This document shows, one piece after another, positions 32,875-35,860 of a stretch of DNA of 64,000 nucleotides. The stretch comes from Herbinix sp. (GTDB taxonomy: Bacteria; Bacillota; Clostridia; Lachnospirales; Lachnospiraceae): contig JARBTJ010000004.1 in NCBI GenBank assembly GCA_029240245.1, positions 124,001 through 188,000 on the forward strand. The letters run 5' to 3'. How positions within the stretch are numbered: position 1 is the stretch's first letter; each line of letters starts with the position of its first letter. The translations under genes were made by a program, and so were the position numbers. The notes beneath the pieces were generated by a model. The model was not told the DNA's origin, did not search any database, and worked only from the letters and a program-made list of their open reading frames with translations.

Positions 32875-32919
32875 GTAAAAAACGCCATCACTTTTCTATA
32901 AAGTAATGACGTCTCTGTC
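32875..32919 (-). promoter_or_regulatory. Leader terminator (attenuator) of the nif operon
   Basis: In the nifH leader, about 60 nt before the start codon. On the minus strand the arms ACGTCATTACTTT and AAAGTGATGGCGT pair over 13 bp (three G-U) around ATAGA and run into six T, a complete intrinsic terminator. Just 5' of and overlapping the stem is the box ACAGAGACGTC (32908-32918), almost identical to the one in the modA leader. A short upstream hairpin (CTCT...AGAG, 32914-32929) would compete for the box. Transcription of nif must pass this stop, so antitermination is implied. Confidence 0.7.
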
Positions 32920-32981
32920 TGATAGAGCTCTTAAATGTTTTGCGTAATAATTTTTATAGGTGATATTCTACCATCCGGAGT

Positions 32982-33009
32982 ATTATGATTCAATACATCG
33001 ATTTGTCAA
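32982..33009 (-). promoter_or_regulatory. Candidate sigma-A promoter of nifH
   Basis: Minus-strand TTGACA (33009-33004), 16-bp spacer, CATAAT (32987-32982). Start expected near 32975, giving a ~150-nt leader. No sigma-54 -24/-12 (TGGCAC-N5-TTGC) pattern is seen in this gap. Confidence 0.6.
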
Positions 33010-33090
33010 AATTATTAATCTGTTTCAATTAATATTTGCACAATTTATACTAATACGTTGATTTTATTGAATCCTACGGATGATTTGCAT

Positions 33091-34146
33091 CTATTTTTCT
33101 TTTAGTAGCAGTATATGCTCCTTTGGTAGTGTTATAAACTGTGGCAGCTTTTCCTGATAGATGTTCCTCCAGTCCTGCTTTGATAATACCCAGCAAACGC
33201 TTTCCGATTGTGGGCTATCCGAATTATGCAGCAGCACTTTATGATCGAAGGGTCCCTCCTGTAAGGAGGTCAATCCCGCCTTTATTGTATTAATATCATA
33301 TGAATTCTGCGCAGGTTTTAAATGCTGTGACCGAATACCCACATATCGTATCTCCTCACCTACGAACTGGTTGACGCAAAGCTTTATATTCCAGTCAACT
33401 GCTAACACTTCGCTATCCGACAGCCTGCGCACTCTGGAGATATTTCTTAAACCCGTCAACTTTGCTGCTGTAATGTCCAAAGGACGTTGAAACACATCCT
33501 CTTTGTCCCCCATTTGAATTACCTTTCCCTGATCCATAACAGCTATTTTGTTACAAAAACGGTATAATTCATCCCTGTTGTGAGATACCATTAGGATGTC
33601 TCCGGTATAATCTGTCAGCATTTCACCAAGTTCCTGCTGAAGTTGATCCTTCAGATAAGAGTCTAAAGCGGTAAAGGGCTCATCAAACATCAGTATCTCC
33701 GGCTCATAAGCCATCATTCTTGCCAAGGCAACTCTCTGTTGTTCTCCTCCGGATAATTGATTTGCATATCGGTGTTGTAATTTCATAATATGGAATCTAT
33801 GTAGGAGACTCTCGGCCACCGACCTTTTCATTTTATTTTTACGTACCGCTATTTCAATGTTTTCCCTTACTGTCATGTGTGGGAAAAGTGCATAATTCTG
33901 AAACATAAAGCCAATATTTCTCTCTCTTGGTGCAAGGTTGACGGAATGCTCGGAATCATATAGAAGCCTTCCATTATGAATGATTTTACCCTCATCCGGC
34001 GTCTCAATTCCGGCGATGCATTTTAATGTAAGACTCTTCCCGCAGCCGGAGCCCCCTAATAGACCTGTTGTATTTTTTTCTGTTTCAAATTTCATATGAA
34101 GCGTAAAAGATTTATATTTTTTTAATATATCAACCTTTAGACTCAT
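33091..34146 (-). CDS. modC: Molybdate ABC transporter ATP-binding protein
   Basis: 351 residues from the ATG at 34146 (AGAGAAGGAAG before it). ATPase domain with Walker A GGSGCGKSLTLK (about 37-48), signature LSGGEQQRVALARM (about 130-143), Walker B PEILMFDEPFTALD and H-loop MVSHNRDEL. The C-terminal ~110 residues have a MOP/TOBE-like region (IRYVGIRSQHLKPAQ). It drives molybdate import for FeMo-co. It overlaps modB by 17 bp. About 80 bp after it lies the nifH promoter, so mod and nif are adjacent but separately started. Confidence 0.92.
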   Translation of the reverse strand: MSLKVDILKKYKSFTLHMKFETEKNTTGLLGGSGCGKSLTLKCIAGIETPDEGKIIHNGRLLYDSEHSVNLAPRERNIGFMFQNYALFPHMTVRENIEIAVRKNKMKRSVAESLLHRFHIMKLQHRYANQLSGGEQQRVALARMMAYEPEILMFDEPFTALDSYLKDQLQQELGEMLTDYTGDILMVSHNRDELYRFCNKIAVMDQGKVIQMGDKEDVFQRPLDITAAKLTGLRNISRVRRLSDSEVLAVDWNIKLCVNQFVGEEIRYVGIRSQHLKPAQNSYDINTIKAGLTSLQEGPFDHKVLLHNSDSPQSESVCWVLSKQDWRNIYQEKLPQFITLPKEHILLLKEK

Positions 34147-34822
34147 GCTTCCTTCTCTCCCTCTCACGATAATGATGGCTGACAGCGAAATAGTTCATAA
34201 AAAATATCATAAAAAACGATATTACAATCAATATCCCGCATAGAATGGCAGCTTCCTTCCGATTCCCCGCCTGAATTGCCGTGTAGATAGCAAGCGGCAT
34301 CGTCTGGGTTAGCTTAGGGATGTTACCGGCAAGCATAAGCGTTGCCCCAAATTCCCCGAACGCTCTTGCTAAGGCCAGGATACCCCCGGTACCAACTCCG
34401 GGTAATGCTAACGGCATAATAATTCTCCAGAAAATCTTACCTTCCGACATACCCAGGGTTCTTCCTGCATAAATCAAATTCCGGTCGACCTGTTCAAAAG
34501 CCGCCTTTGCTGAGCGGTACATTAACGGAAAAGAAATTACAACCGATGCCACGATAATTGCTGAACGTGTAAATATAATCTTTATCCCTACTTTTGTGAG
34601 AAAAGCTCCGAGAAATCCATGCTTTCCCAATAGCATCAATAAAATAAAACCCGCAACCGTAGGAGGAAGGACCAGTGGAAGCGTCAGGATGACATCTGCC
34701 ACCCGACGGATTCCCCGGTCGGATTTCACCACTTTATGTGCTGCGAATATCCCTAATACAAAAGTAATCATAGTGGCAGGAATTGCCGTAATTAATGATG
34801 TCCAAAGTGGTGCCCAGTCCAT
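34130..34822 (-). CDS. modB: Molybdate ABC transporter permease
   Basis: 230 residues from the ATG at 34822 (GGAAGGAGG before it). Five to six membrane helices, beginning LITAIPATMITFVLGIFAAH. The ModB/CysT-type EAA loop is in GRTLGMSEGKIFWRIIMPLA (about 130-150), followed by LALARAFGEFGATLMLAGN, a signature of molybdate permeases. It forms the membrane channel of ModABC. The start lies 49 bp after the modA stop. Confidence 0.93.
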   Translation of the reverse strand: MDWAPLWTSLITAIPATMITFVLGIFAAHKVVKSDRGIRRVADVILTLPLVLPPTVAGFILLMLLGKHGFLGAFLTKVGIKIIFTRSAIIVASVVISFPLMYRSAKAAFEQVDRNLIYAGRTLGMSEGKIFWRIIMPLALPGVGTGGILALARAFGEFGATLMLAGNIPKLTQTMPLAIYTAIQAGNRKEAAILCGILIVISFFMIFFMNYFAVSHHYRERERRKHESKG

Positions 34823-34871
34823 TTTGTTCCTCCTTCCCGAACGCCGGTATGGCCAAATCCTTGACCTTTCA

Positions 34872-35639
34872 TTATTTAACTGGGGTGAAACCATATTTTA
34901 TAAAAACTGTTTTTGTTTCTTCCGATTGCAGATAATCAAGAAATTCTTTTGCGGCGGACGCTGCCTTCGTATCCTCAATGATTGCCGCAGGGTATATAAT
35001 TGTGCTATGACTTTCCTCCGGAGCATACGCGATTATTTTGACATTATCCGACCCAAATGCATCCGTTGCATAGACGATACCAGCATCTGCATTTCCCGAG
35101 CTTACCCAGGTCAGTACCTCCGAAACATCCTTGCCATAGACCGCTCTCTTAGTTACCTCTTCCGCAATCCCAAGATACTCAAATACTTCCATTGCATATT
35201 GACCAGCCGGAACATACGCCGGGTCTCCGATAACGATTACCGGTGCCTTTGTAATTTCCAGCAGGCTGTTAATCTCGGCCTGATTATCGGTCGGAGTTAT
35301 CAGAACGATTGTATTTTCCAGCAAGTCCCTTCTACTGCCTTTTAAAATTAAATTATCTTCCTCCAAGGCATTCATCTGCTTTTCGGCTGCTGATATAAAT
35401 AAATCAATCGGAGCTCCTTCCCGAATTTGCTGTTCGAGGGCACCGGATCCTGCAAAAGTGAATGAAATTTTTACTTCCGGCCTGGCCTTCTGATACAGTC
35501 CTGTAATTTCCTCCATCGCCGGTTTTAAACTGGCTGCTGCGCCTATTAGTATTTCGTTGTCGCCGTTTTTTCTGCCACAGCTCATGAGCAGTGATCCTAT
35601 AAGAAGTATCATTAGGGTAAAAACTATTCTTTTCTTCAT
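34872..35639 (-). CDS. modA: Molybdate-binding lipoprotein
   Basis: 255 residues from the ATG at 35639, preceded by AAAGGAGGAATC; the in-frame extension to 35708 lies in the leader. Lipoprotein signal peptide with lipobox LLMSC (Cys about 21). The mature protein has the ModA pattern: ILIGAAASLKPAMEEITGLY, then FAGSGALEQQIREGAPIDLF and DLLENTIVLITP, with the oxyanion-binding Ser residues in AAASL and GSGAL. It binds molybdate (or tungstate) outside the membrane and hands it to ModBC. It is the first gene of the mod operon, placed next to nif as expected for Mo-nitrogenase. Confidence 0.94.
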   Translation of the reverse strand: MKKRIVFTLMILLIGSLLMSCGRKNGDNEILIGAAASLKPAMEEITGLYQKARPEVKISFTFAGSGALEQQIREGAPIDLFISAAEKQMNALEEDNLILKGSRRDLLENTIVLITPTDNQAEINSLLEITKAPVIVIGDPAYVPAGQYAMEVFEYLGIAEEVTKRAVYGKDVSEVLTWVSSGNADAGIVYATDAFGSDNVKIIAYAPEESHSTIIYPAAIIEDTKAASAAKEFLDYLQSEETKTVFIKYGFTPVK

Positions 35640-35726
35640 GGTAATTTGATTCCTCCTTTGAATGCCTGTTTTTAATAAATACCAATACTTAACCACTTTA
35701 TAGATCAATGTTTTGTAGATTGAAAC

Positions 35727-35766
35727 AAAAAAAGCGCCTTAGAATAGTTCTAAGACGCCTCTGTCA
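35727..35766 (-). promoter_or_regulatory. Leader terminator (attenuator) of the mod operon
   Basis: Minus-strand arms GCGTCTTAGAA and TTCTAAGGCGC (11 bp, one G-U) around CTA, followed by seven T. The box ACAGAGGCGTC (35754-35764) overlaps the 5' arm and matches the nifH leader box at 10 of 11 positions. Upstream, TGTCA...TGACA (35761-35778) can form a short competing hairpin that takes in the box. It lies about 65 nt after the promoter and about 90 nt before modA, so it must be read through for molybdate transporter expression. Confidence 0.7.
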
Positions 35767-35830
35767 ATGCTTTCTGACATACAATTCATTTAATTCTCAA
35801 TAATTACTACCGTAATTCATTAATTAGTCG

Positions 35831-35860
35831 TTATTATATCGGCAGATAACCCTAATTGTC
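35831..35860 (-). promoter_or_regulatory. Sigma-A promoter of modA
   Basis: Minus-strand TTGACA (35860-35855), 18-bp spacer, TATAAT (35836-35831). Both hexamers are perfect consensus. Start expected near 35824. Confidence 0.75.

Follow-up and report, generated by a model that had tools for sequence, protein, structure and literature searches.

A promoter, hexaloop box and terminator shared by the nifH and modA leaders of Herbinix point to single-hexaloop ANTAR antitermination of nitrogen genes

The stretch of DNA analysed here, referred to as the window, comprises 64,000 nucleotides (nt) of Herbinix sp. (class Clostridia, family Lachnospiraceae; assembly GCA_029240245.1, contig JARBTJ010000004.1, positions 124,001 to 188,000) and carries on its minus strand a nitrogenase operon and a molybdate-uptake operon, each preceded by a leader in which a sigma-A promoter is followed by a short sequence box and an intrinsic terminator. 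The first gene of the nif operon is nifH (32002..32823, ATG at 32823; TIGR01287 above its cut-off). It is followed by two PII-family genes in the position of nifI1 and nifI2 (31178..32021; PF00543 in both) and, apparently in the same operon, by nifD, nifK and nifE (26777..31159; TIGR01282 and TIGR01283 above cut-off); TIGR01286 was the best match of nifK, yet below its cut-off. The NifH protein was closest, among the matches listed, to those of Anaerocolumna, Mobilitalea and Mobilisporobacter (94–97% identity). The second operon consists of modA, encoding a molybdate-binding protein (34872..35639, ATG at 35639; TIGR01256 above cut-off), modB, encoding a permease (34130..34894; TIGR02141 above cut-off), and a gene for a modC-like ABC ATPase (33091..34167; PF00005), which is named by its position, several ABC ATPase families of NCBIfam matching it below cut-off.

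In the nifH leader the promoter TTGACA-16-CATAAT (32982..33009), or alternatively one with an extended −10 TAGAAT ending at 32965, both assigned by consensus match only, is followed by the box GACAGAGACGTC (32908..32919) and by a terminator (32877..32916) consisting of a hairpin at about 32916–32878 and a U-tract at 32882–32877. The modA leader contains the promoter TTGACA-18-TATAAT (35833..35862), which agrees with the consensus at 12 of 12 positions, the box GACAGAGGCGTC (35754..35765) and a terminator (35727..35762; hairpin 35762–35730 and U-tract). The consensus box common to both leaders is GACAGAG(A/G)CGTC, and in both of them it overlaps the 5' arm of the terminator. The box begins 62 nt after the −10 element in the nifH leader (45 nt with the alternative −10) and 67 nt after it in the modA leader. 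The entire leaders folded better than 200 of 200 dinucleotide shuffles (z = −3.3 for nifH and −4.0 for modA), and the segments containing box and terminator reached z-scores of −7.8 and −6.7, respectively, against shuffles. A pattern of box and terminator written from both leaders matched these two places only in the genome of the window. We also used a covariance model, R2, made of 27 sequences that excluded the window, its genome and the 80 NifH loci described below; in the 64-kb window it ranked the modA leader first (E = 1.1e-6) and the nifH leader second (E = 2.6e-4), the E-values being rough after a short calibration. The arrangement of promoter, leader, box and complete terminator, claimed for both operons in a preliminary description of the window made from the sequence alone, is thus confirmed. 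A looser pattern, ACANNGNNGT plus T5, was uninformative alone, with 108 matches in the genome and 143 in the reversed control.

No Rfam family reached its gathering score in the nifH or the modA leader, and the low-threshold matches over the modA leader (SpF01_sRNA, E 0.065; trpB, E 2.3) were discarded as below that score. The absence of a sigma-54 promoter, also stated in the preliminary description, held as well. A sigma-54 pattern with up to three mismatches gave, on the coding strand of both leaders, a single match with three mismatches, located inside the modA terminator, and its count across the window equalled the shuffle expectation (220 versus 224). A search of the genome, whose completeness is 77%, gave no protein with a Sigma54_DBD domain, although such a gene could lie in the absent part. 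Neither the −24/−12 promoter nor the RpoN protein expected for sigma-54/NifA control of nif was therefore detected; NifA itself was not searched.

The box in each leader can be folded as a hairpin with a stem of three base pairs, GAC/GTC, and a hexaloop, AGAGAC for nifH and AGAGGC for modA. In both loops the first base is A and the fourth is G (A1 and G4), as in the P2-type hairpin recognised by ANTAR-domain proteins, and both stems close with A-U and C-G pairs, the two pairs of the EutV target for which sequence importance is reported in the cited part of PMC3369931. Since the GTC strand and loop positions 4–6 lie within the 5' arm of the terminator, hairpin and terminator would be mutually exclusive.

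We examined the hairpin in relatives with two sets of sites. At 93 model-defined sites, placed without a regular expression, G4 and the closing C-G pair were present in 93 of 93 and A1 in 91 (G in L266 and L284), a result which selection by a sequence profile favours. The second set, of 92 family sites, was placed with a regular expression that fixed A1, G4 and the closing C-G pair and therefore tests box positions 1, 2, 11 and 12 only; three weak matches from the Herbinix genome (L197, L199, L200) were left out of it, L198, L202, L266 and L284 were not placed, and L201 (E 1.59) was retained. The outermost stem pair, seen as GC, AT, CG or GU, was standard at 90 of these 92 sites, compared with 79.8 ± 1.2 when partners were shuffled, and the second pair at 91, compared with 88.4 ± 0.6. 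G-U pairs occupied 14 of the 184 outer stem cells, which speaks for an RNA element and against a palindrome in DNA. Relatives also use the stems CAC/GTG, AAC/GTT, GGC/GCC and TAC/GTA, and among 44 seeds, of which those from NifH loci (like the corresponding rows) had been selected for stem pairing, seven cells showed changes on both sides of the stem, a number reached by none of 500 shuffles. A stem of at least three pairs is thus kept by paired changes, and it overlaps an intrinsic terminator as a P2 stem does. In the terminator stem 89% of cells were paired, with 103 two-sided changes versus 35.6 ± 4.6 in shuffles, a covariation that is not free of selection, the seeds having been chosen in part for a terminator-like shape. 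Little sequence is conserved outside the 12-nt box and the terminator.

The preliminary description had named a covariance search of clostridial genomes as a check on this element, with lack of conservation before nif and mod homologues as one outcome that would refute it. That outcome was sought with R2, one seed of which (L121) is a nifH leader from another genome, and was not obtained. The search covered the best 80 of at least 586 confirmed NifH places from a single scan of a species genome collection (906,547 bases). At E ≤ 0.1 it gave 14 matches, 12 of them before nifH (one, in L018, about 600 nt upstream of the gene), two before modA and none elsewhere. The two modA matches belong to Mobilitalea sibirica (L005) and Mobilisporobacter senegalensis (L006), both of which also carry the element in the nifH leader. 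A looser structural scan found box and terminator in further NifH loci. A second model, R1, which is rich in seeds and includes those from NifH loci as well as the gltB and amt leaders of the Herbinix genome, matched at E ≤ 0.1 also away from nifH and modA (L080:3972, L013:9715).

Several of the lower-ranking matches deserve separate mention. In two Clostridium species, R1 matches with TGC/GCA stems (L080:3972-4010 and L037:3804-3841) stand before an open reading frame (ORF) upstream of nifH, which in L080 encodes AnfO, an iron-only nitrogenase protein. A second box and terminator at L013:9715-9754 (E 0.07 with R1; E 0.014 with R2 over a smaller search space) precedes a nitrogenase component 1-type gene of the same nif cluster. 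The third-ranked match of both models in the window (53829–53865, minus strand; E 0.06 and 0.11) is probably due to chance. The window also carries a skipping-rope RNA (RF02924) at 5537–5623 on the minus strand, with 51.5 bits and thus above the gathering score.

The element was not restricted to nitrogenase and molybdate genes. In the Herbinix genome R1 matched a glutamate synthase-type leader (E 0.003) and an ammonium transporter-type leader (E 0.027), both of which are R1 seeds; the genes, gltB and amt, were identified by clustering with Pfam-tested representatives. Within the family, R1 matched 192 of 299 genomes at E ≤ 0.1. A family-wide pattern search gave many matches that look like chance occurrences in coding sequence, and 36 family places were chosen for a terminator-like matched string before their gene context was known. 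The best-ranked family matches comprised 92 distinct sites, 90 with a downstream ORF. In 61 of the 90 this ORF belonged to a named nitrogen-regulon set: glutamine synthetase (18), ammonium transporter (Amt) or PII (14), AsnB (9), PyrG (CTP synthase; 8), GltB (5), GdhA (3), and carA, PucR, nifH and modA (1 each). Further ORF clusters behind the box encoded a 2Fe-2S protein (5), the ornithine cyclodeaminase family (3) and others found once or twice. Names were given through ORF clusters, with Pfam for ten representatives and PII, and these are counts without a matched control gene set. Class-wide sites (25 loci, of which L312 is from the same family as Herbinix) likewise included leaders of ammonium transporter, glutamine synthetase and PII genes, as named by eye.

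The preliminary description noted that no ANTAR regulator lies in the window. This agreed with a search of the whole genome, which found an ANTAR gene at one place, on another contig (C104, E 1.6e-16); the proteins of the window were not scanned individually. The gene lies directly downstream of that for glutamine synthetase (glnA) and encodes a protein of 182 amino acids (PF03861, 59.8 bits), so that the genome with the two leaders also contains an ANTAR gene. ANTAR genes were present in 265 of the 299 family genomes, and the motif (E ≤ 0.1) accompanied them: among 245 good-quality family genomes it occurred in 154 of 223 with an ANTAR gene versus 4 of 22 without (Fisher p = 4e-6), and among all 299 in 181 of 265 versus 11 of 34 (p = 9e-5). 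In 391 genomes of the class, the motif at E ≤ 1e-3 was found in 59 of 193 with an ANTAR gene and 3 of 198 without (p = 4e-17), or in 49 of 177 and 3 of 198 when the family of Herbinix was removed; at E ≤ 0.1 the numbers were 106 of 193 and 35 of 198. The genomes counted as lacking the gene include three, taken to be G346, G575 and G610, whose ANTAR match fell short of the curated cut-off. Two genomes, G202 and G507, have a motif with E below 1e-4 and no detected ANTAR gene, for which an assembly gap or a recent loss is possible. In three genomes (G389, G362 and G542), picked since motif and ANTAR gene lay close together, box and terminator head a glutamine synthetase–ANTAR pair. glnA was found just upstream in 10 of 12 inspected high-scoring ANTAR loci, and the gene for NitR of Clostridium acetobutylicum, considered below, presumably adjoins glnA.

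The ANTAR protein of the Herbinix genome aligned with the solved structures 1s8n (putative antiterminator), 6wsh (response regulator) and 4akk (nitrate regulatory protein) and with AmiR. It has an ANTAR domain and lacks a phosphorylatable receiver of the EutV type: its N-terminal half matched no receiver family, and the position of the phospho-acceptor Asp is a Gly in the alignment, so this protein probably responds to something other than phosphorylation. Among the more distant glnA-linked ANTAR proteins of L324, L325 and L326, a Response_reg match was found in the first two and none in the third. Within the family, the glnA-linked proteins examined (L001 1483-2031; L183–L187, L189, L190 and L192) keep M172 and K149 of EutV, but R168 is replaced by Q, R175 by G and Y164 usually by H (by F in L187). 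Their alignment thus suggests a distinct RNA-binding face.

The small hairpin just upstream that had been suggested to sequester the box fared less well. It can form in the window, and L004 and M. senegalensis share its CTCT...AGAG version in their nifH leaders; it is absent from the nifH leader of M. sibirica, and the modA hairpin is not preserved in either M. sibirica or M. senegalensis. Over 117 sites, the longest stretch upstream that is complementary to the box averaged 4.56 nt, versus 4.27 ± 0.11 in shuffles. As it is retained in some nifH leaders only and its excess over shuffles is slight, we rejected the hairpin as a general element, and a sequestering role is weakly supported.

In the EutV system antitermination needs both hexaloops, the upstream P1 and the downstream P2, and their spacing, according to the cited sections of PMC3369931 and PMC8934654; deletion of P1 or altered spacing reduced induction in Enterococcus faecalis (PMC3369931). 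Isolated EutV hexaloops were bound individually, and the revised minimal binding motif is one hexaloop (PMC8934654). The P1–P2 linkers measure 5–12 nt in eut leaders and 2–25 nt in an actinobacterial set. An upstream P1 with a short linker was not recognised here: the nifH leader contains none, and the modA leader has one candidate closed by T-A at a gap of 27 nt and another that overlaps the box. P1-like hairpins occurred at 8 of 71 seed-type sites (8.7 ± 2.6 in shuffles) and at 7 of 92 family sites (12.2 ± 3.3); of 13 genomes, a strict pattern of dual hexaloop and T-tract matched only G296, at two overlapping places, and not that of the window, whereas the reversed control matched 9. The earlier remark that the classical dual hexaloop is not clear-cut in these leaders therefore stands. 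Shuffles were mono-nucleotide for the P1 tests on 71 and 25 sites, for the box complement at 117 sites and for the NifH dual-hexaloop test, and dinucleotide for the P1 and promoter tests on 92 sites.

At 46 of the 92 sites a promoter matching the consensus in 9 or more of 12 positions ended no more than 16 nt from the box, as compared with 5.0 ± 2.1 in shuffled sequences, so that the transcript is predicted to begin about at the box. Of the 64 sites where a promoter matched well, 45 had a −10 element ending 6–14 nt before the box, which leaves no room for a transcribed P1. A similar search detected dual hexaloops in 4 of 79 NifH loci (L024, Clostridium paridis; L051; L055; L081, Acetobacterium wieringae, with tandem boxes and terminators) and in none of 40 shuffle rounds, so the approach is able to see P1. 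At least two hexaloop-type boxes with terminators lie before nifH in L048, L051, L060 and L081 (Acetobacterium species and a Bacillota metagenome-assembled genome), and in L051 and L081 the last box of the series is a dual hexaloop.

Taken together, the architecture of the leaders, their conservation, the paired changes in the stem, the association with nitrogen genes, the co-occurrence with ANTAR genes and the lack of a recognisable P1 make it probable that a nitrogen regulon including nifH and modABC is controlled by ANTAR antitermination through a single hexaloop. The preliminary description had named ANTAR regulators as the natural candidate, and the A1/G4 hairpin, its paired stem changes, its recurrence before nif and mod genes, the co-occurrence and the glnA-linked ANTAR gene in the same genome all favour it; these comparisons support a coordinated antitermination of the two operons through an ANTAR protein.

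Three other explanations have to be weighed. The leaders could be of the classical dual-hexaloop kind, with a P1 so degenerate or unusual that our definition missed it. The dual hexaloops in four NifH loci would fit an ancestor with P1, the spacing between −10 and box in the window leaves room for one, and inspection of the modA leader by eye allows a hairpin UGUCAG-AAAGCA-UUGACA whose loop has A1 and G4. That hairpin, however, overlaps the box and is not preserved in M. sibirica or M. senegalensis, P1-like hairpins are at chance level at the 71 and 92 sites, the strict dual pattern is outnumbered by its reversed control, and most of the well-matching promoters lie too close to the box for a P1 to be part of the transcript; we regard this explanation as unlikely. 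The box might also be a DNA operator, GAC-N6-GTC, for a nitrogen-responsive DNA-binding regulator, with the terminator being incidental, as GAC/GTC is an inverted repeat that often lies near the predicted transcription start. An operator would not be expected to overlap the 5' arm of a covarying terminator, to tolerate promoter–box distances from 6 to 45 nt and G-U pairs in its stem, or to co-occur with a family of RNA-binding proteins, which makes it very unlikely.

A small-molecule riboswitch, responding for example to glutamine or ammonium status by a switch between hairpin and terminator without a protein, would suit the nitrogen-themed regulon, and the cyanobacterial glnA motif offers a precedent in the cited part of PMC2864571. 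The well conserved portion is limited to the 12-nt box and the terminator, no Rfam family was matched at gathering score, and the motif tracks ANTAR genes. Conservation of this extent is too small for a known aptamer, and of the explanations considered a riboswitch is the one we find hardest to credit.

Single-hexaloop antitermination by an ANTAR protein has, for its part, to accommodate several observations that weigh against it. By the EutV model one hexaloop should not suffice, since EutV needs both; P1-like hairpins at class sites numbered 5 of 25 versus 2.7 ± 1.5 in shuffles; and the two 3-bp hairpins have little stability on their own (−0.7 and −1.9 kcal/mol in the nifH and modA leaders). 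The EutV residues in contact with RNA, R142, Y164, R168, N173, R175 and R177, correspond to E, H, Q, D, G and N in the ANTAR protein of this genome, and another regulator may have been missed at 77% completeness. An R2 match before nifH at E ≤ 0.1 was absent in 68 of the best 80 NifH loci, so the element marks only part of clostridial nif operons. No box was detected before glnA in the Herbinix genome, its gltB and amt leaders were weak with R2 (E 0.18 and 0.91), and pyrG, asnB and gdhA are not obvious nitrogen-starvation genes. As genomes are related, the p-values of co-occurrence overstate independence. Among genomes in which no ANTAR gene was detected, the motif was present at E ≤ 1e-3 in 3 of 198 from the class (G336, G479 and G507) and in 2 of 34 from the family (G199 and G202), and 134 of 193 class genomes with an ANTAR gene lacked it at this threshold.

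Under the single-hexaloop mechanism the nifH and modABC transcripts would start at the sigma-A promoter and run into the intrinsic terminator, and the 12-nt box could alternatively fold as an A1/G4 hexaloop stem from bases of the terminator 5' arm. Under nitrogen limitation an ANTAR protein, most likely the glnA-linked one, would bind and hold the hexaloop; acting as a dimer while the RNA leaves the polymerase, it would block the terminator, and RNA polymerase would then read through into nifH and modA together. One hexaloop would suffice, and in many relatives the transcript is predicted to start at or near it. That the protein binds the RNA, that the polymerase reads through, and which signal acts in which direction are inferences on our part, and our guess is that the signal passes through the status of, or contact with, glutamine synthetase or PII.

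The proposed system resembles EutV/EutW and the eut leaders of E. faecalis in its A1/G4 hexaloop, in the AC/GU closing pairs, in a stem that overlaps the terminator 5' arm, in the ANTAR-domain protein and in the occurrence of several leaders per genome. It differs in having no recognisable P1 and many predicted transcription starts at the hexaloop, and the ANTAR protein of this genome lacks the phospho-acceptor Asp, is encoded behind glnA and presents another RNA-contact face. An upstream first hexaloop is a feature of EutV, NasR and AmiR leaders that is missing here. The closest precedent is in Ramesh et al. 2012, the relevant section of which predicted ANTAR nitrogen regulons in Pelobacter (nitrogenase) and Desulfotomaculum acetoxidans, with ANTAR-type elements before genes for nitrogenase, P-II, ammonium transporter and glutamate/glutamine synthase. 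The one-hairpin leaders do not fit the dual-hexaloop description given there, and molybdate uptake, pyrG, asnB and carA are absent from the gene list of that section. NasT/NasS and NasR are likewise ANTAR-protein antitermination systems of nitrogen metabolism, unlike the present one in responding to nitrate; the NasR target has P1 and P2 hexaloops according to the cited part of PMC3369936. NitR of C. acetobutylicum is similar in being a clostridial antiterminator protein linked to ammonia assimilation, as the cited passage of PMC4676874 states with reference to Fierro-Monti 1992; that passage names no RNA target.

In the open-access literature we recognised no paper on single-hexaloop ANTAR leaders or on this clostridial regulon, and some of the leaders may stand in Table S2 of Ramesh et al. 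To our knowledge, the regulation of nitrogen fixation and assimilation is little described in Lachnospiraceae and many Clostridia. The analysis provides a concrete regulon, a candidate regulator and a 12-nt target open to point mutation. It also bears on the question, raised by the EutV–RNA structure in the cited section of PMC8934654, of whether ANTAR antitermination needs two hexaloops; if the mechanism is correct, one-hexaloop antitermination would occur naturally, contrary to the dual-hexaloop rule. In the window a single RNA element would tie nitrogenase synthesis to the supply of molybdenum through molybdate import. We lean towards the view that nitrogen assimilation in a large proportion of Clostridia, and in some diazotrophs also nitrogenase and molybdate uptake, may be run by a minimal attenuator, a single hexaloop joined to a terminator at or near which the transcript begins, and by an ANTAR protein encoded beside glnA. 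If so, this would be a master nitrogen circuit of Lachnospiraceae, in place of the sigma-54 or GlnR-type control used elsewhere.

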